This document shows positions 3,536 to 35,471 of a stretch of 64,000 nt of DNA, one piece after another (position 1 is the first letter of the stretch; each line of letters starts with the position of its first letter). The translations under genes and the position numbers were made by a program. Origin of the DNA: a virus; the IMG/VR virus record IMGVR_UViG_3300044977_000034, positions 1 to 64,000 of that record, one strand, 5' to 3'. The notes under the pieces were generated by a model. It saw only the letters and a program-made list of their open reading frames with translations. It searched no databases and was not told the DNA's origin.

Positions 3536-4747
3536 TTAAACCGGCGGGACGCCGAACAGCGTCTCCGCGTTGCTCTGACTTGCGCTGGCGCTCAGCACTT
3601 GCATGACAGTGAGCGTCTGCTGAATGACGAAGCGGCTGGTGCCGTCTCCCCCGGTGCCGGGGGTGCCGCCCGTGACGGGGCCAGCGGCCGACACTTGGAG
3701 CGCGCCTCGCGGGTCCATGGTGGAGGTCGTCGCCGGGTAGGTCAAATCGGCGTACTGCGTGAGGGCATCGGGGGCGTAGCCAACCCCGGCGAGAGTGATT
3801 GTCGGGATCGGCTGGTTCGGCAGGAGGCAGACCGGCATGCCGATCAGATCGGACGTGATGACGGTCACGTTCTGACCAGCGGTGTACTGCGGGATCGCGG
3901 CCAGGAAAATCTTGTACGTCTTGCGGCCATAGGTGGTAGCCGCGCCCGCTGGCGTGGCGATTATCTCGCTCTGCGGGCGCATGTAGATGTCGAGGCCTTG
4001 GATCAGGACATTGCCCGCTGGGCTGCCTCCGAGGCTGACCACGCCGACGCCGCGCGCGCAGCTGCTGTCTGGCGCAAGGAAGCGTCCAGCGCCGCCATTC
4101 ATGAACGGCGAATAGAACGAGGGAAGATTGCCGTGCTGCGTGAAGGCGTAGGAGCTTGGGTCGCCGCCATAGCAGCCGATCGCGGCGGCGGCTTGGGTGA
4201 CGACGGCGGGAGGCGAGATCGTGATCGTGCCGACCGGATTGATCGCCGTCACCTTGGCGAACAGCATCGAGCCGCCCGCTCCGGCCCCGGCGACCGAGAC
4301 GAACTGCCCAACCGCGAAGCGCCATGTGTCGTTGGCAAGGGCGAGAGTGACCGTGCCGCTGTTGCTGACGGTCGCGCCCATAGAGTAGCCGGTCTCGATG
4401 CCGACGCCGCGCGCGCCGGTAGGACCGGGCGTTCCCGGCGCGATACCGGGCGCATAGACCGTGGCGAGCGGGAGGGGCACGCCAGACTGGGCTGGGGCGG
4501 CAACGGTCAGCGCGAGTCCGGCGGGCTGGATAGCCTGATTCAGCGCTTGGACGATGGTGGACAGGTAGAGGGCGGGCATCGAGCCCATGCCCTTCTTGTC
4601 CTTGGAGCCAGTCCCCGGAGCGGGCAGGCCGATTCCCTGCCAGAAGATCGACGGGCCGATCTCGACCGAATATTCGGCGGGCGACGGCCTGCCGCCAGCG
4701 AGGCCGCCGAGGGCGATGATGGGGCCGACTGAAACTGACTGCGCCAT
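3536..4747 (-). CDS. Virion structural protein, unidentified
   Basis: 403 aa, rich in Gly, Ala, Thr, Val and Pro, consistent with a beta-structured surface protein. A short GTPGPTGARGVG segment near residue 125 is collagen-like. No catalytic motif is recognised. It follows the major capsid gene directly (8-nt gap), so it may be a head fibre or decoration protein. Several conserved-looking Tyr/Trp-containing segments (LANDTWRFAVGQFVSV) argue that it is a true coding region, although a long shadow frame runs on the opposite strand. Confidence 0.65.
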   Translation of the reverse strand: MAQSVSVGPIIALGGLAGGRPSPAEYSVEIGPSIFWQGIGLPAPGTGSKDKKGMGSMPALYLSTIVQALNQAIQPAGLALTVAAPAQSGVPLPLATVYAPGIAPGTPGPTGARGVGIETGYSMGATVSNSGTVTLALANDTWRFAVGQFVSVAGAGAGGSMLFAKVTAINPVGTITISPPAVVTQAAAAIGCYGGDPSSYAFTQHGNLPSFYSPFMNGGAGRFLAPDSSCARGVGVVSLGGSPAGNVLIQGLDIYMRPQSEIIATPAGAATTYGRKTYKIFLAAIPQYTAGQNVTVITSDLIGMPVCLLPNQPIPTITLAGVGYAPDALTQYADLTYPATTSTMDPRGALQVSAAGPVTGGTPGTGGDGTSRFVIQQTLTVMQVLSASASQSNAETLFGVPPV

Positions 4748-4754
4748 CTCTCCC

Positions 4755-5669
4755 TCACTGGGTCGGGAACGAGCCCCAGATGGAGCGGAAGTCGAAGTAG
4801 CCGAAGCTGTAGCGCTCGTAGCCCTTCACGAGGAGGTTGTCCGACGTGAAGTCCACTTGCATGTCGAGTTCAAAGCTGACGCGCTGGAGGTAGAGCAAGC
4901 CCTCCTGATCGGTCATGATGAACCACGCCGTCGGCGACGTCAGATAGTCGTGGACGACATGCCCATCGGGGATGCCGCCGGACGTCTCCGGAATTGCGTT
5001 GATGTCGTTGTCGTTCGTTCCGGGCCGCAGAACGGTCCGGAGGAGCCGGATGGCGATCGGTTCGAGCGCGATCGGCACGACGAGCTTGCGGGCGCGGGCC
5101 TGCATGCGGAGGCCAGCATTGTCGCGGAACGAGCCGCGAATCGAGGCCTGCGCGTTCAGCAGCGAGGCCTCGTTCAAGTCCATATCGACGGCGAATCTAT
5201 TCGGGACGACGCCAGTATCGATCGGATGGTTGAGCGAGCAGAGCGGCTGCTGATCCCCCAGGATGGTGGGATCGTAAACGGTCGCGGTATTGAGGGGATA
5301 GGCGCCGTAGATTTCCTTGGTCTGATTGAACGACTTTTGCAGCCCGAGATTCGATGGCTGCCACTGCCTCTTGTAGAGGTTGTCGTCGATCATTTTCCGG
5401 GTGAAGGCGTACCCGAGGCCAATTTCCTTGTGGTACTGGTTATAGACGTAGCGCTCGCCAGCTTGGTTGTCGAACGTCGTCGGGCCGCCCTCGTTCTTCA
5501 GGGCGGCGAGGCCGAGGTAGCGCATCGAGGCGGTGCGCTCGACCGACATGTAGGATTTGTCGACCTTGTAGATCTTGGGATAGATCCGGTCGAGATCCTT
5601 GTACTGTCCAGCAACCTTGCGGAGGCCTGGAAAGAGAAGGTCGTAAGCCTGGGCGACTGAGACGGCCAT
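4755..5669 (-). CDS. Major capsid protein
   Basis: 304 aa. Composition and layout fit a phage major capsid protein of likely HK97 fold. The N-terminal helix (AQAYDLLFPGLRKVAGQY) is followed by ERTASMRYLGLAALKNEG and GERYVYNQYHKEIGLGYAFTR. The C-terminal domain ends KGYERYSFGYFDFRSIWGSF, the domain-closing strand typical of capsid proteins. It lies downstream of the scaffold-like gene (6956) and a decoration-like gene (5682), the standard phage order. The family assignment was not checked by alignment. Confidence 0.8.
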   Translation of the reverse strand: MAVSVAQAYDLLFPGLRKVAGQYKDLDRIYPKIYKVDKSYMSVERTASMRYLGLAALKNEGGPTTFDNQAGERYVYNQYHKEIGLGYAFTRKMIDDNLYKRQWQPSNLGLQKSFNQTKEIYGAYPLNTATVYDPTILGDQQPLCSLNHPIDTGVVPNRFAVDMDLNEASLLNAQASIRGSFRDNAGLRMQARARKLVVPIALEPIAIRLLRTVLRPGTNDNDINAIPETSGGIPDGHVVHDYLTSPTAWFIMTDQEGLLYLQRVSFELDMQVDFTSDNLLVKGYERYSFGYFDFRSIWGSFPTQ

Positions 5670-19063: not shown

Positions 19064-19711
19064 ATGAAACACGCCGTCGCCTACTTCAGAACCAGCTCAG
19101 CCACCAACGTCGGCCAGGACAAGGATTCGCTCGCCCGCCAGGAGAGCGCCGTCCGCAGCTACGCCGCGCGCAACGACATCGAGATCGTCGGCGAATATTA
19201 CGACGCGGCGGTCAGCGGCGCCGATCCGGTCACGCAGCGCGAGGGATTCAGCCTCATGCTCCAGCGCATCGCCAGCAACGGCGTGCGGACAATCCTCGTC
19301 GAGACAGCGAATCGCTTCGCCCGCGACCTGATGGTGCAGGAGACTGGCTGGAAGATGCTTCAGGATCTCGGCGTCGAGCTGGTCGCCGTCGATTCGCCCA
19401 TGAGTTTCGTCGAGGACACGCCGACGGCGAATATGGTCCGGCAGATCCTGGGCGCGGTGGCCGAGTTCGATAAGGCGCTGACGGTCGCCAAGCTCCGGGG
19501 CGCGCGCGAGCGCATGAAGGCCAAGACCGGCAAGTGCGAGGGGCGGAAGAGCTGGGCCGAGATGGACCCGGCGATGGTCGCGATGGCGCGCGAGCTGCGC
19601 CGGTCCGGCAAATCGCTAAACGCGGTGCGCGTAGCCCTGGCGAACCTGGGCTATGTCTCCGCGAGCGGGACGCCGTTCACGCGATCGGTCGTTTCTCGGA
19701 TGACCGACTGA
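19064..19711 (+). CDS. Serine recombinase (resolvase/invertase family)
   Basis: 215 aa. N-terminal catalytic domain: AVAYFRTSS with the nucleophile at Ser11 (or Ser12), DSLARQESAVRSYAARNDIE, then ETANRFARDLMVQETGWKML, which holds the conserved Arg cluster (NRFARD) that activates the serine, and a long E-helix (MVRQILGAVAEFDKALTVAKL). The C-terminal segment (MAMARELRRSGKSLNAVRVA) is a resolvase-type HTH DNA-binding region. The size fits a small resolvase/invertase rather than a large serine integrase. It may resolve genome multimers, invert DNA or integrate the phage. AGGAGTCTACC is the RBS. Confidence 0.88.
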   Translation: MKHAVAYFRTSSATNVGQDKDSLARQESAVRSYAARNDIEIVGEYYDAAVSGADPVTQREGFSLMLQRIASNGVRTILVETANRFARDLMVQETGWKMLQDLGVELVAVDSPMSFVEDTPTANMVRQILGAVAEFDKALTVAKLRGARERMKAKTGKCEGRKSWAEMDPAMVAMARELRRSGKSLNAVRVALANLGYVSASGTPFTRSVVSRMTD

Positions 19712-19818: not shown

Positions 19819-21150
19819 ATGAGTATTTCTGCGACTGATAAGCTACGCCTTTTGGACAACGTAGACCAGCCTCCCGGCCTCAACGTCGAGATCGTCGACA
19901 AATTCGAGGCCCTCCAACCCGGCAAGGCGACTCTGAACAAGGCCCAAACGGCCCTGTTCGGCTCGGCCTTCCTGCAAGGGCGCAGGCTGCAATTCACGAC
20001 CTCGATGCCGCTCGGCGATTACCTCAATGTCGTCAGCATGCACCGCGCCGCCAAGGGCGCGACCGTCGAGGAACTGCGGACCGCCTCCAACCGGACCAAG
20101 ATCGCCGCGCACGAAAAGGCGATTCGGGAATATCTGGCCGACACTGCGTTCGTCAGCGAGAAATTCATCTTCCCGAATTTCATGCTGAACTACGGCAGCG
20201 CGTGGGACGAGGGCATGCCCAAGGCCAAGCTGACCTTGCTGGCGACCGATCCGGAAACCCTGGCGTGGCCAGCGGTCTTTGAGACGGCGACCGGAACCAA
20301 GATGCCGGTCACCGACGGCGCGCACCGCACCGGAAGCCTGATCGAGCTGATCGCGAAGCATCAGAACAAGGCGGGCATCGGCGCGCTTCTCAGCAACTCA
20401 GTCGGGCTGACGATTGTCATGGAGGCATCGAAGGACGATGCCCACCAAGACTTCGCCGATTGCGGTCGCGCGAAGCCGATCGCGGACAGCGTTCTGGCGA
20501 CCTTCGACATGCGCAATCAGGTCGTCGCCTTCGCGCGCGATCTGGTGGGCTCAAGCCCGTTCTTGAGTCGGCATGTCGATGCGACGAGCGCCTCGGTCAA
20601 CCTGTCGAGCAACTCGACCAAGGTCTGGTCGATGTCGGCGGTGCGCGGCTATCTCATGGCGGCGATTCCCACGGACAAGCCGTTCCTCGACATGACGGCG
20701 GCCGAGCGCGCGGCGGTCTTGCACGAGCATAAGAAGCCGCTGGCGGAGTACATGCACGCGGTCGTCGAAGGCGTGCCGATCCTCACCGATCTGGCGTCGG
20801 AGAAGCCCGACCAGACGCCGGGGGCCTTGCGCAAGCAGCGCGGCGGCTGCGTTCTCATGCGCGGCGCCGGATTCGGCGTCCTCATGCGGGCCTACCGGCA
20901 CGGCCCCGGCAAGACCGGAACGGCGAACGGCGCGATCGCGGCGGCGGTCGAGAAGCTGGCGGCGGTCGACTGGTTTGTGTTCAAGCCTGGAGTCGGCCAG
21001 CAGCCGCTGATGGACGGAGACGCCTACGGCTGGCTCAAGGAGAACGTGCAGCCAGCTTGGTTTGAAATGATCGCGGTCGATCCCGGCAAAGGCTCGTATC
21101 GGCTCAAGGGGACGAACGCTATGATCGACGCCGCGTTCGCCGCCCTCTAA
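19819..21150 (+). CDS. DndB/DGQHR-like protein
   Basis: 443 aa. The central part shows the DGQHR-domain pattern: RTKIAAHEKAIREYLADT (about residues 92-110), then MPVTDGAHRTGSLIELI (about 161-178) in place of DGQHR, and HQDFADCGRAKPIADSVLAT (about 211-230), which matches the 'F-D-N-..KP-..S' element. DndB itself regulates DNA phosphorothioation, and relatives occur in 7-deazaguanine (Dpd) systems. No sulfur-transfer or Dpd genes are seen here. I infer a DNA-modification-related or ParB-like role. It stands directly upstream of the radical SAM gene. Confidence 0.65.
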   Translation: MSISATDKLRLLDNVDQPPGLNVEIVDKFEALQPGKATLNKAQTALFGSAFLQGRRLQFTTSMPLGDYLNVVSMHRAAKGATVEELRTASNRTKIAAHEKAIREYLADTAFVSEKFIFPNFMLNYGSAWDEGMPKAKLTLLATDPETLAWPAVFETATGTKMPVTDGAHRTGSLIELIAKHQNKAGIGALLSNSVGLTIVMEASKDDAHQDFADCGRAKPIADSVLATFDMRNQVVAFARDLVGSSPFLSRHVDATSASVNLSSNSTKVWSMSAVRGYLMAAIPTDKPFLDMTAAERAAVLHEHKKPLAEYMHAVVEGVPILTDLASEKPDQTPGALRKQRGGCVLMRGAGFGVLMRAYRHGPGKTGTANGAIAAAVEKLAAVDWFVFKPGVGQQPLMDGDAYGWLKENVQPAWFEMIAVDPGKGSYRLKGTNAMIDAAFAAL

Positions 21151-21156
21151 CGGCAA

Positions 21157-21180
21157 GGGCGCGAGGGCAACCTCGCGCCC
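21157..21180 (+). promoter_or_regulatory. Intercistronic hairpin with GCAA tetraloop
   Basis: GGGCGCGAGG, loop GCAA, CCTCGCGCCC: a perfect 10-bp stem capped by a GNRA tetraloop. It ends 5 nt before ATG 21186. No Shine-Dalgarno sequence is visible between hairpin and start codon, so it may influence translation of the radical SAM gene or mark an mRNA processing site. Confidence 0.6.
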
Positions 21181-21185
21181 GCTCC

Positions 21186-22208
21186 ATGATCGTCCGCCTC
21201 ACCCATATCGACGGCAAACTGCCGAATCTGGCTTTGATGAAAATCGCCGCCGAGCATCGCCGCCGGGGCGATACCATCGTTTTCACCAAGGACGTTGAGC
21301 GCGGCATGTTCGAGGCCGCTTACGATCGCGTCTACGGTTCAGCCATCTTCGCCTACGACCACTCGCTCGCCCGCGTCGAGCGGTTCAAGGCCGCCTTCCC
21401 CGACGCCATCCTCGGCGGCACCCATAACCGAGCCAAGCCGATCACCGTCGAGGCGGTCCTCGGGATCAGCGAGACGGCGCCGGTCGACTATTCGATCTAC
21501 CCCAAGTTCGACGGCTCCATCGGCTTCACCCAGCGCGGCTGTCGGCTGAAATGCGGCTTCTGCGTCGTGCCGAAGAAAGAGGGCAAGAACCGCACGATCG
21601 CGACGATCTTCGATATCTGGCGCGGGCACGGCCATCCGAAGCATCTGCACCTCCTCGACAACGATTTCTTCGGCCAGCCGCGCGACCAGTGGGAGGCGCG
21701 AATCGATGAGATCCAGCGGGGCAACTTCATGGTCTGCCTCAACCAGGGCATCAATGTCCGGATGATCGACGACGTCTCGGCCGCCGCGCTCGCCTCAATC
21801 CATTATTGCGACGACAGCTTCACCCGGCGACGGCTCTACACCGCCTGGGACAGCCTGGGCGACGAGGAGCGGTTCTTCTCCGGCGTCAACACGCTGGAGA
21901 AGCACGGCGTGCCGCCGAGCAACCTTCTGGTCTACATGCTGGTCGGCTACGACAAGCGCGAGACCTGGGAGCGCGTCCTCTATCGCTTCGACAAAATGGT
22001 CGCGCGCGGCATCCGGCCCTATCCGATGATCTTCGGCGACCGGCGCCGCAAGCTGCCGCTGGGCGGCACCAACCAGCGGCTCGACGAACGCACGCTTTCC
22101 GAGTTCCAGCGCTGGGCCGTCGGCCGGTTCTACAACGTCTCTTCATTCGAGAACTACGACGCGAGCAAGCGCGGCCCGACCGCGACCGACCAGATGAGCC
22201 TGTTCTGA
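21186..22208 (+). CDS. Phage radical SAM protein
   Basis: 340 aa. The radical SAM cluster motif is C119-x3-C123-x2-C126 in TQRGCRLKCGFCVVPKKEG. An N-terminal segment with GDTIVFTKDVERGMF and SLARVERFKAAFPDAILGGT resembles the B12-binding-like or Rossmann half that precedes the barrel in MiaB/B12-type radical SAM proteins. LHLLDNDFFGQP and LNQGINVRMIDD fit later barrel strands. The substrate is unknown. It sits in an operon with a DndB-like gene and overlaps the next gene by one base (TGATG). Confidence 0.8.
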   Translation: MIVRLTHIDGKLPNLALMKIAAEHRRRGDTIVFTKDVERGMFEAAYDRVYGSAIFAYDHSLARVERFKAAFPDAILGGTHNRAKPITVEAVLGISETAPVDYSIYPKFDGSIGFTQRGCRLKCGFCVVPKKEGKNRTIATIFDIWRGHGHPKHLHLLDNDFFGQPRDQWEARIDEIQRGNFMVCLNQGINVRMIDDVSAAALASIHYCDDSFTRRRLYTAWDSLGDEERFFSGVNTLEKHGVPPSNLLVYMLVGYDKRETWERVLYRFDKMVARGIRPYPMIFGDRRRKLPLGGTNQRLDERTLSEFQRWAVGRFYNVSSFENYDASKRGPTATDQMSLF

Positions 22209-28086: not shown

Positions 28087-28158
28087 AAATGGACCCCGCT
28101 CACGGGCGATCTATGGCCGTTTAATCGCCTATCGTCTTTTGTGGCTTGAGAGGCGTTT

Positions 28159-28291
28159 GTCCCTGGCTTGTCCCGTCTCAGTCCCGCCTGTTTAAGCGTG
28201 TCCGAGCCGAATCGACGCGCGGGACACGCGCGGGACATTGTGCAAGCATTCCGCCCGGAATTGCTCAGGTCGAGAGGGACAAGCGCGGGAC
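28159..28291. repeat. GGGAC/GTCCC motifs in 11-bp-spaced groups
   Basis: GTCCC begins at 28159, 28170 and 28181 (11-bp steps). GGGAC begins at 28221 and 28232 (11 bp), and at 28276 and 28287 (11 bp). Further single copies lie at 28361 and 28382 around the promoter. The repeated helical-turn spacing in three separate groups is unlikely to be chance and suggests cooperative protein binding. Confidence 0.7.
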
Positions 28292-28350
28292 GCAACCAGC
28301 CCTATGTATATAAAGCGTGCAAAAAGCGTCGTGATGGCGACGAAAACCTC

Positions 28351-28406
28351 TTGACCGCGCGTCCCGCAACGATCATATAGAGGGACATGCGCGCCGCCTA
28401 CGGCGC
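28351..28406 (+). promoter_or_regulatory. Early promoter with leader hairpin
   Basis: TTGACC (28351-28356), a 17-nt spacer and CATATA (28374-28379). One GTCCC motif lies in the spacer and a GGGAC at the predicted start. The leader forms GCGCCG-CCTA-CGGCGC (28391-28406), followed by GGAGTCGAG (28416-28424) and ATG 28428. Confidence 0.55.
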
Positions 28407-28427
28407 CCCAAAAGAGGAGTCGAGATC

Positions 28428-28664
28428 ATGTCCCGTTTTGAAATGAAGGTGAACGATACCGCCGATTGGGCCGAGCACGATTGGCTCGTTTTCGAGGACG
28501 GCGTGATGGTTCATGGGTTCGCTGGGTCCAATGCGGCCGAGCGTTTCATCGCCCGTCGTCAGGCTGCGATCGCGATCGACAAAGAGATTGCTCGCGCTCG
28601 CCGGACGTCTCGCGTGTCGAACGCCGAGGCGCGCCGCATCCACGCTCTTTTGCGGAGGCGCTGA
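28428..28664 (+). CDS. Small early protein, 78 aa
   Basis: MSRFEMKVNDTADWAEHDWL, then VFEDGVMVHGFAGSNAAERF and a long basic helix to the end. First gene of the early operon, preceded by GGAGTCGAG. Its TGA is followed after two bases by the first hammerhead ribozyme. Function unknown. Confidence 0.75.
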   Translation: MSRFEMKVNDTADWAEHDWLVFEDGVMVHGFAGSNAAERFIARRQAAIAIDKEIARARRTSRVSNAEARRIHALLRRR

Positions 28665-28666
28665 CA

Positions 28667-28729
28667 AGGCGAAACGCGATCGGCTATTGGCCGATCGCGT
28701 CCTGGCGTGAGGCGCCAGCTGACGAGCCT
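28667..28729 (+). ncRNA. Type II hammerhead ribozyme 1
   Basis: All hammerhead elements appear in type II order. Stem II 5' strand AGGC (28667-28670), GAAA (28671-28674), stem III of 10 bp (28675-28684 with 28690-28699, loop TATTG), cleavage triplet GTC (28699-28701, cut after C28701), stem I of 6 bp (CTGGCG 28702-28707 with CGCCAG 28713-28718, loop TGAGG), core CTGACGA (28719-28725) and stem II 3' strand GCCT (28726-28729). The C at the fifth core position is a tolerated CUGANGA variant. It lies between two genes and ends 19 nt before GGAGTCGAA of the next. Confidence 0.9.
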
Positions 28730-28759
28730 ACCGTCTGCCATCCAACCGGAGTCGAATCC

Positions 28760-29176
28760 ATGTCACGCGAATCTGATCTGCGCCCGTTCTCGTTTGATGA
28801 TCTGCCTTGCCGCGACGGCAAGCGCGTCGAGCCCGAAAAATGGGGACCGAAATATTCCCGGCCGGTGAAACCCGGCAAGCCGGTCGATCGCTGCCCCACC
28901 AATTGCGCGAGCGGGCAGAAGTATGACTTCGACGCGGGGAAACACCGGGCGAAGATCCGGGCGGAGTTCGTCGCCCAGGCTAACGCCGATCGGCGGTCCT
29001 GGGCGGAGGGCAAGCCGCGCGCGAAGGCCTGGGGCCTCACCGAGACGATTGTCGACGTCTACAAGGCGGCCATGCGCGACAAGCGCAAGCGTGAGTTCGC
29101 CGCGCAGTCCGCAAAAAATGCCGAGTACCTACAATTTTTTCTCGACGACGACGCCCCGATCGCGAGGGCGGCATGA
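28760..29176 (+). CDS. Early protein, 138 aa
   Basis: I choose ATG 28760 because GGAGTCGAA (28748-28756) precedes it. The frame is open upstream only as shadow of the preceding gene and ribozyme. SFDDLPCRDGKRVEPEKWGP, PVDRCPTNCASGQKYDF and a Lys/Arg-rich C-terminal helix. Two Cys (DRCPTNC) could bind metal. Function unknown. Its mRNA would begin with a 5'-OH end after ribozyme cleavage. Confidence 0.75.
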   Translation: MSRESDLRPFSFDDLPCRDGKRVEPEKWGPKYSRPVKPGKPVDRCPTNCASGQKYDFDAGKHRAKIRAEFVAQANADRRSWAEGKPRAKAWGLTETIVDVYKAAMRDKRKREFAAQSAKNAEYLQFFLDDDAPIARAA

Positions 29177-29358
29177 TGACCAAGTGGATTGTGACCTATC
29201 CCGGCATCACTCAAGACCTAACCCGCGCCTTCGACAACGAGTCGGAGGCCAAGCAATTCGCGCGCGTCCGCCGGGATCGCGAACTGCATATGTGGCGCCA
29301 TGTCCGCCTTGAACGGACCGAGGACAATTGCGTCACCATGATCCCGGTCAAGTTCTAA
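29173..29358 (+). CDS. Small early protein, 61 aa
   Basis: ATGA overlap with the previous stop. MMTKWIVTYPGITQDLTRAF, then FARVRRDRELHMWRHVRLER. Its TAA stop (29356-29358) provides the first base of the second ribozyme's stem II. Function unknown. Confidence 0.75.
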   Translation: MMTKWIVTYPGITQDLTRAFDNESEAKQFARVRRDRELHMWRHVRLERTEDNCVTMIPVKF

Positions 29359-29423
29359 GGCGAAACGAGGAGGCCCGTCAGCGGGCTTCCTTGTCGCGCG
29401 GTGAGGCCGCGCCTGATGAGCCT
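29358..29423 (+). ncRNA. Type II hammerhead ribozyme 2
   Basis: Stem II 5' strand AGGC (29358-29361; the A is the last base of the upstream stop codon), GAAA (29362-29365), stem III of 12 bp with G-U pairs (29366-29377 with 29382-29393, loop TCAG), GTC (29393-29395, cut after C29395), stem I of 6 bp (GCGCGG 29396-29401 with CCGCGC 29407-29412, loop TGAGG), core CTGATGA (29413-29419), stem II 3' strand GCCT (29420-29423). The stem I loop is the same as in ribozyme 1 although stem sequences differ. It ends 8 nt before GGAGTCGAA of the next gene. Confidence 0.92.
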
Positions 29424-29441
29424 AACCAACAGGAGTCGAAT

Positions 29442-29726
29442 ATGACAGACCGCAAGATTGATTACGTGACCTTTGACGATGACCCGGACGGGCTCGATTG
29501 GAAGGCGCCGATCTACGACAAGGACGGGACGCCTCGTCCGCAAATTGTCTTGATGGCGCTCGCCTACCGCGACGGGAGCGATGACCTCGTCGATTCGCTA
29601 AGCACCATCGATTTCTATCAGGAGCGCGGCGACTGGATTCGGGGGACGTTCCGGCGCGTGCGGGACATCCCGGCGCGTTGCGCCCATCTGCGTGAGGTCG
29701 CGGAACAGCTGGGGTTGAAGCAATGA
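29442..29726 (+). CDS. Early protein, 94 aa
   Basis: ATG 29442 follows GGAGTCGAA (29432-29440); the open frame upstream is the ribozyme. Acidic: IDYVTFDDDPDGLDWKAPIY, then DFYQERGDWIRGTFRRVRDI and RCAHLREVAEQLG. Function unknown. Confidence 0.75.
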   Translation: MTDRKIDYVTFDDDPDGLDWKAPIYDKDGTPRPQIVLMALAYRDGSDDLVDSLSTIDFYQERGDWIRGTFRRVRDIPARCAHLREVAEQLGLKQ

Positions 29727-30013
29727 GACTGCCCACCATCCACCTGAACGGGACCGACGCACAGTCGCTCTTTGACGGCTACAAGGCCGCCCATGAGGCG
29801 ATCAAAGCCGCTCAAGAGGCGCTCGCCCAGTGCGCGCCCAATGGCCGCGACTACTACGTCCAAAAGACCGAGTCCGGCGACTGGACCGACGTACCCACCA
29901 ACGAGGCGATATATGAGCACCGCGCCCGGATGGCGGCGCTGGAAACGATCGAGCGTGACCTTGAGGCGCTCGCCCTGCACGTCATGGACGCTGACCCCAA
30001 GGTGCGGACGTGA
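29723..30013 (+). CDS. Early protein, 96 aa
   Basis: ATGA overlap with the previous gene. RLPTIHLNGTDAQSLFDGYK, AHEAIKAAQEALAQCAPNGR, then RARMAALETIERDLEALALH. The 'THLNGTS--L---Y--A--A---A--AL----PNGRDYY' pattern is widespread in phages. Role unknown. Confidence 0.8.
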   Translation: MRLPTIHLNGTDAQSLFDGYKAAHEAIKAAQEALAQCAPNGRDYYVQKTESGDWTDVPTNEAIYEHRARMAALETIERDLEALALHVMDADPKVRT

Positions 30014-30066
30014 TCGGCCTCGCCTGCCTGTTCGCGCTGTTCATGTTGGCGAGCGGCAGAATATAA
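30010..30066 (+). CDS. Possible 18-aa hydrophobic peptide
   Basis: GTG 30010 overlaps the previous TGA (GTGA). It reads (M)IGLACLFALFMLASGRI to TAA 30066. A single short membrane helix. Very small phage membrane peptides exist, but evidence here is only the coupled start and hydrophobicity. Confidence 0.3.
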   Translation: MIGLACLFALFMLASGRI

Positions 30067-30080
30067 AAACGGTTGCCATG

Positions 30081-30136
30081 TTGACAAGTTTTGCAGTCAA
30101 CGCTATCTGAGAGGGGCGCGGCGCCTACCGCGCCCC
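30081..30136 (+). promoter_or_regulatory. Promoter and leader hairpin of the ArdC-like gene
   Basis: TTGACA (30081-30086), a 17-nt spacer, TATCTG (30104-30109). A half operator TTGCA (30091) lies in the spacer. The transcript would start in GGGGCGCGG-loop CGCCTA-CCGCGCCCC (30113-30136), a perfect 9-bp hairpin followed by TTAACTTTTTT and then GGAGTCGAA. The hairpin plus T-tract could also act as an attenuator. The promoter is a near copy of the one at 32751. Confidence 0.6.
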
Positions 30137-30160
30137 TTAACTTTTTTGGAGTCGAATCCC

Positions 30161-31069
30161 ATGCGTGACCTACACCGAGAAATTACCGACAAAATCCTCG
30201 CCCAGCTCAAGACGGGCGTGGCGCCCTGGCGCAAGCCCTGGTCTGAGCACGTCCAGGCGCACGGTTCCGTGATGCCGCGCAACGCCGTCACCGGCCGCGC
30301 CTATTCGGGCGCCAACGTCCTGTTGTTGTGGGGCGTAGCGCAGACTGAGGGCTACGGCCCGAGGTGGCTGACGTTCAAACAGGCCAAGGCGGCTGGCGGG
30401 ACTGTGCGCGCGGGCGAGCACGGCGTGGCCGTGATCTTCGTCAAGCGCATGCTGGTGCGCGATCGAAAGGACCCGGACGCGCACAAGACGATCGGTTTTC
30501 TCAAGGCCTATACCGTGTTCAACACGGCCCAGTGCGACGGCTTGCCGGACTCGGTCCTGGGCATTGGCGAGGCTCCCCTGCACCGCCCGGTGAACCCGGA
30601 CGGGCGCGATGCTGACCTCGATGCCTTCGTCGCGGCGACCGAAATTCGCTTTGTCGAGCAAGGCATCAAAGCCCAATATTCGCCCCTGTTCGACCGCATC
30701 GAGATGCCGCCTTTCGCCCAGTTCAAGGGCGCCCATCCGTACTACGCGACCATGTTCCATGAGATGGGGCACGCCACCGGCCACAAGAGCCGCCTGGACC
30801 GCAACCTCAACAACAAATTCGGCGACCGCTCCTATGCGGCCGAGGAGCTAATCGCCGAGCTAACGTCGGCCTTTGTGTGCGCGGAGTGGGGCATCGACAT
30901 GGGCGAGGCTCCGGCCGCCTACATCGAGACCTGGGTCTCGCTCCTGGCCGAGAAGGAAACGGCGATCGTGACCGCCGCTGCGGCGGCCTCGCGCGCGGTG
31001 GAGTGGATGCGGGGCGCGGCGAGCGCCGAGGAGGCGGACGAGGACGAACCCCTGCCCATGGCCGCCTAA
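30161..31069 (+). CDS. ArdC-like antirestriction protein (zincin)
   Basis: 302 aa from ATG 30161 after GGAGTCGAA. The N-terminal part (DLHREITDKILAQLKTGVAP, then GRAYSGANVLLLWGV and WLTFKQAKAAGG) is the ArdC N-terminal ssDNA-binding-type domain. The C-terminal part has HEMGH (residues 200-204) and, about 30 residues later, EELIAELTSAFVCAEWGI, the zincin metallopeptidase layout of the ArdC C-terminal domain. ArdC-type proteins protect incoming DNA from restriction. The first promoter-linked gene in this stretch, consistent with early action. Confidence 0.85.
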   Translation: MRDLHREITDKILAQLKTGVAPWRKPWSEHVQAHGSVMPRNAVTGRAYSGANVLLLWGVAQTEGYGPRWLTFKQAKAAGGTVRAGEHGVAVIFVKRMLVRDRKDPDAHKTIGFLKAYTVFNTAQCDGLPDSVLGIGEAPLHRPVNPDGRDADLDAFVAATEIRFVEQGIKAQYSPLFDRIEMPPFAQFKGAHPYYATMFHEMGHATGHKSRLDRNLNNKFGDRSYAAEELIAELTSAFVCAEWGIDMGEAPAAYIETWVSLLAEKETAIVTAAAAASRAVEWMRGAASAEEADEDEPLPMAA

Positions 31070-31093
31070 TTCAATCCTGAGAGGAGTCGAGCA

Positions 31094-31324
31094 ATGTCTA
31101 AGCCACAGTACGTCGTAGTGATCACCTTCGCCAACGGTTCGATCGATCGCCTATCGTTCGATCGCTGGTCCCAGTGCCGGGACGTCTGCCAACACGGCAT
31201 CAGCTACAGCGGCGGTCGCGTGCGCCGCGTCGAGGTGGATTGCGCCGCGCTTGGCGGCGGCCTGCGGGCTATGTGGGACGTCTCGTGGACGGCCGAGAGT
31301 CAGCACGCTGGTCTGTACAACTAA
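31094..31324 (+). CDS. Small early protein, 76 aa
   Basis: GGAGTCGAG (31083-31091) precedes ATG 31094. SKPQYVVVITFANGSIDRLS, then GGRVRRVEVDCAALGGGLRA; beta-rich. TAA 31322-31324 is followed immediately by ribozyme 3. Function unknown. Confidence 0.75.
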   Translation: MSKPQYVVVITFANGSIDRLSFDRWSQCRDVCQHGISYSGGRVRRVEVDCAALGGGLRAMWDVSWTAESQHAGLYN

Positions 31325-31386
31325 GGGCGAAACGGCGGCCGAGCGATCGGCCGTTGTCGCGGCGTAAGGCGCCGCCTGATGAGCCT
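31325..31386 (+). ncRNA. Type II hammerhead ribozyme 3
   Basis: Stem II 5' strand GGGC (31325-31328, directly after the stop codon), GAAA (31329-31332), stem III of 10 bp with two G-U pairs (31333-31342 with 31347-31356) capped by a GCGA tetraloop, GTC (31356-31358, cut after C31358), stem I of 6 bp (GCGGCG 31359-31364 with CGCCGC 31370-31375, loop TAAGG), core CTGATGA (31376-31382), stem II 3' strand GCCT (31383-31386, one G-U pair). It ends 5 nt before GGAGTCGAA of the next gene. Confidence 0.92.
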
Positions 31387-31401
31387 AAACAGGAGTCGAA
31401 A

Positions 31402-31905
31402 ATGATTAGTGACGAAGACAAGCTTGCGGCGGCCGAGGCGCTCGACCGGGCCTATGCAAAGGCGGAGGCCTTTGACGCGGCGCAAGAGGAAGACCGCAAA
31501 TTGGATGCCTACGGGCATCTGACGTGGACGCTTGGGGATGACGATTGGATGGCGTGTTTCGACGCCGTCCGGATAGGCTCCGAGATCGCCTACCACGTCG
31601 TGGTCGACTGTGAGTCGGGCGGTTTTATCTCCACAATCGAGAAGGGCGTCGTGCCAGTTAGCGAGGCCGCGCGCCTCATTAATCTGCCGAGCCAGTACGT
31701 TGATATGGCGATCGAGAACCATCTCGACGCGCGCCGTAAACGCGAACCCGTGGGCCGGTTCGCCTATCGCGGCTGCGAGAAGCGCTGGGCGCGACATATC
31801 AAGCAGCTCATCAAGCAAAAGCCGGAGCCCCAGGACGATGACGTCGAGGACGTTGACCAAGCGGCCGAGCTACGCAAGGCGGCGCTGAATCGGGGGCAAC
31901 CATGA
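31402..31905 (+). CDS. Early protein, 167 aa
   Basis: ATG 31402 follows GGAGTCGAA (31392-31400). Acidic, with LDAYGHLTWTLGDDDWMACF, EIAYHVVVDCESGGFISTIE, then FAYRGCEKRWARHIKQLIKQ and an Asp/Glu tail. Function unknown. Upstream frame is shadow of the previous gene and ribozyme. Confidence 0.75.
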   Translation: MISDEDKLAAAEALDRAYAKAEAFDAAQEEDRKLDAYGHLTWTLGDDDWMACFDAVRIGSEIAYHVVVDCESGGFISTIEKGVVPVSEAARLINLPSQYVDMAIENHLDARRKREPVGRFAYRGCEKRWARHIKQLIKQKPEPQDDDVEDVDQAAELRKAALNRGQP

Positions 31906-32135: not shown

Positions 32136-32209
32136 GAACGCGAGCGGGACGGCGTCGAGCAATCGTCGCCGCCTCGCGGGCGCTCTTGCCCGGTTAAGGA
32201 GTCGAACCC

Positions 32210-32750: not shown

Positions 32751-32806
32751 TTGCCTCTTTTCGCATAGCATGCCATATCAGGACCGGGCGGCGCCTACCG
32801 CCCGGT
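32751..32806 (+). promoter_or_regulatory. Promoter and leader hairpin (copy of the 30081 unit)
   Basis: TTGCCT (32751-32756), a 17-nt spacer, CATATC (32774-32779). The 21 nt leading into the -35 box (ending GCCATGTTG) nearly match those at 30081. The leader is ACCGGGCGG-loop CGCCTA-CCGCCCGGT (32783-32806), with the same loop as the 30113 hairpin but a different, fully paired stem, then TTTTCTTTT and GGAGTCGAA. Confidence 0.55.
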
Positions 32807-32826
32807 TTTCTTTTGGAGTCGAAATT

Positions 32827-33030
32827 ATGTCCCGTATTGGAATCCTGCGACAAGCGCGCCGCCTCGCGCGCATGCCCAACCCCGAGGCGCGGCTCGCCTC
32901 TCTCGATCGCATCGCAGCCATTCTTGAGAAGGCCTGCGAGCGCAATGCGCGCCAACGTGCGCTGGCTAAATTCCAGCCGCGCGTCATCCCCTCAAAGCGC
33001 ATCTACACGCGCAAAGGGAGGCCGCAATGA
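32827..33030 (+). CDS. Small basic protein, 67 aa
   Basis: GGAGTCGAA (32815-32823) then ATG 32827. SRIGILRQARRLARMPNPEA, RLASLDRIAAILEKACERNA, basic C-terminus. Possibly nucleic-acid binding. It precedes the helicase genes with an ATGA overlap. Function unknown. Confidence 0.7.
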   Translation: MSRIGILRQARRLARMPNPEARLASLDRIAAILEKACERNARQRALAKFQPRVIPSKRIYTRKGRPQ

Positions 33031-35399: not shown

Positions 35400-35410
35400 A
35401 GGCCAGCGCG

Positions 35411-35434
35411 CGCGCCTCGACGTTTCGGGGCGCG
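35411..35434 (+). promoter_or_regulatory. Intercistronic hairpin
   Basis: CGCGCCTCGA, loop CGTT, TCGGGGCGCG: a 10-bp stem with one G-T pair between the helicase stop and the gene at 35472, followed by a second small stem (GCGGGC-CCGCCC). No T-tract. A processing or stability element is possible. Confidence 0.5.
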
Positions 35435-35471
35435 GTCGCGGGCAATCCGCCCGGTAGAGAGAGTCGAACCA

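Follow-up and report, generated by a model that had tools for sequence, protein, structure and literature searches.

Type II hammerhead ribozymes between small genes of an uncultured tailed phage: fold, conserved placement and a probable role in cutting early mRNA

The present analysis concerns three type II hammerhead ribozymes that lie between small genes in a 64,000-nucleotide (nt) window of viral DNA, which constitutes most of the 78,058-base IMG/VR record IMGVR_UViG_3300044977_000034. The record represents a tailed phage with terminase, portal, primase, RecE and RecT genes, and no phage in the collection searched has a terminase more than approximately 42% identical to its own. The hammerheads, namely copy 1 (28667–28729), copy 2 (29358–29423) and copy 3 (31325–31386), are located on the plus strand, as are the flanking genes and leaders, within a rightward run of small genes whose functions are mostly not assigned. 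Copy 1 follows a gene for a 78-amino-acid (aa) protein (28428–28664; stop codon 28662–28664) and precedes a 138-aa gene (28760–29176), which has a start/stop overlap with the next gene. The latter encodes 61 aa (29173–29358), and its stop codon (29356–29358) overlaps the first base of copy 2; this copy is followed by a 94-aa gene (29442–29726), which in turn overlaps its downstream neighbor. Between copies 2 and 3 lies a gene for an ArdC-like antirestriction protein (30161–31069; ArdcN PF08401, MPTase-PolyVal PF18818, phrog_7245). Copy 3 is preceded by a 76-aa gene (31094–31324; stop codon 31322–31324) and followed by a 167-aa gene (31402–31905) with relatives in four viral contigs. No function is assigned to the 78-, 138-, 94-, 76- and 167-aa products. 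The ribosome-binding leader GGAGTCGA recurs after each ribozyme (28748–28755, 29432–29439 and 31392–31399), 18, 8 and 5 nt from the 3′ end of copies 1, 2 and 3, respectively. A preliminary description of the window had placed three type II hammerheads at exactly these coordinates, at or within two bases of a stop codon and shortly ahead of a leader, and the stop positions and gaps agree with that account.

In copy 1, stem II (AGGC/GCCT), the GAAA element, a stem III hairpin of approximately 10 base pairs (bp), a 6-bp stem I with a TGAGG loop, and the CTGACGA element are recognized; the stem I loop is TGAGG in copy 2 and TAAGG in copy 3. Cleavage is predicted after C28701, C29395 and C31358, and the expected 5′ ends, 28702, 29396 and 31359, are those anticipated previously. 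Independently of the sequence reading, a structural descriptor covering all three hammerhead types (I, II and III) returned the three type II elements from the 64 kb with the same boundaries, all on the plus strand, and detected no type I or type III hammerhead there. The type II pattern occurs three times in the window versus none in 100 shuffles, and Markov controls gave one chance type II match per 60 windows, with 9 stem pairs versus 21–23 in the real copies. RNAfold predicts the three-way junction as both the minimum-energy and the centroid fold in all three copies (z of −3.8, −4.4 and −3.3), and according to both the descriptor and RNAfold, stems I and III are closed by loops and stem II is open. 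A covariance model built from 18 relatives, with the window sequence left out, has exactly three matches in the window, copy 1 at 77.0 bits (E 2.6e-21), copy 2 at 71.6 bits (E 1.2e-19) and copy 3 at 73.3 bits (E 3.6e-20), the next match having an E-value of 0.2. Searches of the whole 78,058-base record found no fourth copy.

The preliminary description had proposed an Infernal search with the Rfam hammerhead models as a check, which gave a divided result. At the Rfam gathering thresholds, the sole match in the window is a tRNA and no hammerhead is called; in a relaxed search, RF02276 (Hammerhead_II; cutoff 37) gave 24.7 bits for copy 2 and 23.9 bits for copy 3, with copy 1 unlisted. By itself, this outcome would count as a refutation under the condition set in the preliminary description. 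The RF02276 cutoff is, however, a threshold of a model and does not define the ribozyme chemically, and the refutation does not stand: the relatives-only model finds all three and a copy in the same phage group (L133, positions 4484–4545) is above the RF02276 cutoff at 39.3 bits. The gathering search was dropped as a decisive test because it is misleading here, the relatives-only model and the covariation being overwhelming. Judged by sequence and predicted fold, the three elements are genuine type II hammerhead ribozymes.

Comparison of 21 related copies revealed that 98.8% of the pair cells are paired and that compensatory change on both sides occurs at 12 of the 20 pairs, which bears out the earlier remark that the stems differ while pairing is kept. 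The covariation score is 0.530; shuffles gave 0.151, and sliding the partner strand gave no more than 0.107. The catalytic core (CUGANGA, GAA, the A15.1–U16.1 pair and H17) is invariant in the 21 copies save for the free N. The copies of the window's phage group have a stem I of exactly 6 bp, closed by a loop that is mostly UNNNG, and a 4-bp stem II. A pseudoknot between loop I and the 3′ tail has been found in the majority of type II motifs, and fast cleavage of a tested example needs it (PMC3088659). This pseudoknot was looked for and is absent from all window copies; a loop I–tail pairing of at least four is impossible in 15 of the 17 distinct group copies and possible in 59 of 97 others. 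As the window copies have no canonical pseudoknot, either another contact or slower cleavage would be expected. The Rfam model misses many members of this pseudoknot-free subclass.

The gene block is common to fourteen related IMG/VR records, 12 of which carry one to five hammerheads each. These ribozymes share the strand of the genes and nearly always lie 0–6 nt after a stop codon and ahead of GGAGTCGA; the genome collection searched gave no match to the group's ribozyme-plus-leader pattern. The L133 homolog of the 61-aa gene before copy 2 is 95% identical and is likewise followed by a hammerhead, with different stems. Regarding borders without a ribozyme, linker hairpin B (32136–32192, plus strand; L159–L169) lies in a slot where other records have a hammerhead. 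Its approximately 57 nt are nearly invariant in seven related phages, mostly between different genes and then followed by GGAGTCGA, and it has no Rfam match. ardC and its downstream neighbor enclose a hammerhead in G006 and linker B, a different hairpin, in G010, the two genes being the same in both records. In all 13 records with a readable ardC unit, four of which are near-duplicates, a hammerhead, linker B or linker C stands after ardC, ahead of the first promoter-like element or helicase gene that follows. Moreover, in each of G008, G009 and G012, the 17 nt ahead of one hammerhead match the start of linker B exactly, apparently as a remnant. These comparisons indicate that, in this phage group, hammerheads and other hairpin linkers can replace one another, a feature that is new here. 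Linker hairpin A (35400–35452, plus strand), after an SNF2 helicase gene, is also conserved in relatives. Linkers A, B and C were considered as possible RNase III processing hairpins, which would be stable and approximately two helical turns long. Hairpins are predicted, but the folds of A and B are no better than shuffles (z of −1.6 and −1.25), which speaks against that assignment; A and B may act as RNA or as DNA. The 22-mers of linker B have eight scattered exact matches in bacterial genomes, mostly GC-rich ones, which are probably due to chance.

The placement of the ribozymes recurs in unrelated phages. A pattern scan of viral contigs listed at least 120 stretches; among the 120 listed, the descriptor recognizes a clean type II hammerhead in 63 and two or more such copies in 22, with all copies on one strand in 22 of 22 multi-copy stretches among the matches listed. 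Outside the window's group, 57 of 92 hammerheads directly follow the stop codon of an open reading frame of at least 30 codons, compared with 9.3% of random positions; the 92 include related phages and are not all independent, and the count is 30 of 54 when one per contig is taken. In these 92, a start codon with a ribosome-binding site is mostly found 15–34 nt past CTGANGA. The recurrent layout read from these sequences, with a stop codon 0–6 nt before the ribozyme and a start codon usually 15–34 nt after it, is new here; the 2011 paper on such elements does not give this rule in its main text (PMC3088659).

One family outside the group is that of Streptomyces phage R4. In R4 itself (JX182370), nine RF02276 matches above the cutoff lie within 8 kb, and the annotation of that stretch includes none of them. 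R4-like phages carry six to ten hammerheads each, several at the same gene borders, and this recurrence argues for a selected function. The literature searched yielded nothing relevant on hammerheads in phages of Streptomyces or of actinobacteria. One R4 hammerhead lies just before the probable true start of an Ocr-like antirestriction gene; this gene, gp72 (L179, 5240–5770), is annotated from a start upstream of the hammerhead, and translation probably begins at the ATG near 5343. In the R4-like records L015, L021, L099, L100, L115 and L180, several hammerheads have no adjacent stop codon and are preceded, at a distance of approximately 10 nt, by a repeated TGTGATACTGT-like motif. This motif is perhaps a promoter, in which case the ribozyme would sit at the very start of the transcript. 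For hammerheads without an adjacent stop in general, sigma70-type promoters precede 4 of 37, versus 5.6% in controls, which is not convincing.

Regarding transcription, the preliminary description had assigned the three copies to one early operon. The gene content of the block suggests that these are probably early genes, and that part of the claim stands; a single operon is doubtful. A promoter is predicted by inspection for the first unit at 28351–28379 (TTGACC-17-CATATA, plus strand), amid GTCCC/GGGAC repeats and with a similar layout in relatives. A second, putative internal promoter is found at 30081–30147 (TTGACA-16-CTATCT, plus strand), directly followed by a GC hairpin (30111–30138; z of −4.0) and a T-run, and a similar element precedes ardC in most relatives. 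As this promoter-like element, hairpin and T-run separate them, copies 1 and 2 on one side and copy 3 on the other probably belong to two adjacent transcripts; the hairpin and T-run could also end upstream transcription. Three sites (28351–28420, 30081–30161 and 32751–32827) share a promoter-like sequence followed immediately by a hairpin whose CCTA loop is conserved and by GGAGTCGA, with a T-run in two of the three. These promoter–hairpin–GGAGTCGA elements, present in most relatives, are possible leader attenuators or terminators. The many GTCCC/GGGAC repeats at 28120–28400 and in relatives resemble repressor operators, and together with a serine recombinase gene (19064–19711) they hint at a temperate phage. 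In addition, a DndB-like gene (PF14072) followed by a radical SAM gene (phrog_9298) at 19819–22208 may constitute a DNA-modification module.

The sequence, fold, covariation and conserved placement of the hammerheads suggest that these ribozymes probably cut early mRNA into pieces of one to a few genes, each new end being formed by a hairpin; cleavage, end protection and any effect on expression are inferred. The role in cutting a polycistronic transcript put forward in the preliminary description is supported as likely; a change in decay or translation gene by gene, also suggested there, may or may not follow from it. In the proposed mechanism, each ribozyme, situated between cistrons of early transcription units, would fold and cut once as the polymerase passes. 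The cut of a type II hammerhead falls between stem III and stem I. A closed hairpin lies on either side of the cut, which means that a hairpin would end the upstream product and another would start the downstream one; this would be a property of the type II permutation only. The upstream mRNA would end in the GC-rich stem III hairpin just past the stop codon, with a 2′,3′-cyclic phosphate, and the downstream mRNA would begin with a 5′-OH on the stem I hairpin, approximately 45–60 nt ahead of the start codon. Such hairpin ends would probably protect the RNA against exonucleases and 5′-end-dependent decay. The result would be mRNAs with defined and probably protected ends and a standard leader, formed without stopping the polymerase. 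Three points weigh against such a role. The putative internal promoter reduces the copies per transcript to two plus one; some R4-like copies follow the promoter-like repeat instead of a stop codon, where cutting would separate no cistrons; and without the loop I–tail pseudoknot, the speed of the window copies at cellular magnesium is uncertain.

A rather unlikely alternative is that the ribozyme is gated by translation. Since the stop codon directly adjoins the first strand of the ribozyme, a terminating ribosome would cover GGCGAAA and block folding, and cutting would be confined to times when no ribosome is completing the upstream gene. The ribozyme would then act as a sensor of translation and would not cut constitutively. 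The stop codon 0–6 nt before GGC in most group copies and the excess of adjacent stops elsewhere (57 of 92 versus 9.3% of controls) are consistent with gating, as is the slack in the 3′ spacing, but any intergenic element in a compact phage genome adjoins a stop codon, and copies without an adjacent stop exist.

Improbable, and rejected as a general role, is the idea that hammerheads are recombination joints marking borders where gene cassettes are exchanged. A crossover within the core would restore an intact ribozyme, given that stem II is invariant and that stems I and III are each formed by a local hairpin. L129 and L133 have unrelated genes before the hammerhead and identical DNA from CTGATGAGCC, in the 3′ core, onward, save for a 2-nt gap before the leader; in further pairs, homology also begins in the 3′ core, and genes for RecE and RecT are present in the phage. 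Upstream of ardC, synteny across borders with a hammerhead is kept in 7 of 36 cases versus 34 of 82 (overlapping genes) and 12 of 26, with Fisher p of approximately 0.02–0.03 on counts that are dependent. Plain GGAGTCGA borders, however, are broken at least as often (46 breakpoints at 54 borders versus 16 at 29), and in R4-like phages there is no such effect (synteny across hammerheads 0.60 versus 0.57). Finally, that the copies are non-functional or very slow remnants carried along with neighboring genes is highly improbable: the sub-threshold Rfam score, the missing canonical pseudoknot and the inactivity of 4 of 18 consensus-matching candidates tested in 2011 would fit, but the invariant core and compensatory stem changes need selection for the folded form.

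A broader version of the cutting role can be offered only tentatively, and we regard it as doubtful: type II hammerheads might serve as general punctuation of early mRNA, positioned at the stop codon and thereby timed by ribosome release, leaving hairpin ends, swappable with linkers B and C, and allowing cassettes to be exchanged with a standard mRNA start, as a natural counterpart of the RiboJ insulator. The purpose of bacterial and phage hammerheads has been described as an open question (PMC6155905; PMC3088659). The window adds a clear multi-copy case, together with a rule of placement that unrelated phages also follow, and the cultured Streptomyces coelicolor phage R4, with nine copies in one gene block, provides an accessible system for deciding function. 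The kind of element is already known; the layout, the conserved positions in R4-like phages, the pseudoknot-free subclass and the interchange with linkers are new. A set of three, which the preliminary description had considered remarkable, is not exceptional, as clusters have been published (PMC3088659) and R4-like phages hold more.

Among known systems, the closest are the tandem hammerheads reported by Perreault in 2011, which flank prophage genes in A. tumefaciens, A. caulinodans and C. scindens (PMC3088659). Self-cleavage of these tandem sets was observed in vitro and, for the A. tumefaciens triple set around ardA, also in E. coli (PMC3088659). As in those sets, several hammerheads here surround small genes of phage DNA, three copies are present and an antirestriction gene is nearby; at least two copies lie close together and border single genes or short gene blocks, as in clustered phage hammerheads. 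The window differs in having ArdC instead of ArdA, an unrelated uncultured phage, no loop I–tail pseudoknot and a fixed GGAGTCGA leader. RF02276 shares the core, topology and order of elements, whereas the window copies score below its cutoff and have the 4-bp stem II, the exactly 6-bp stem I and the UNNNG loop. R4 and its relatives (JX182370, MT701594) likewise have type II hammerheads between small early genes, one by an Ocr-like antirestriction gene, but in six to ten copies, mostly of the pseudoknotted subclass and at positions conserved between phages. In T7, RNase III cuts in early mRNA have been described as driving mRNA maturation and protection (PMC8708148); these sites are similar in that an early phage transcript is cut between cistrons and hairpin ends are left, whereas they need a host protein and leave a 5′ phosphate, and the window RNA should cut itself and leave a 5′-OH. 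RiboJ (PMC6206723) is also a self-cleaving ribozyme ahead of a ribosome-binding site that yields a uniform hairpin 5′ end. It is engineered from the sTRSV ribozyme plus a separate hairpin, and the likeness is thus one of use, not of membership.

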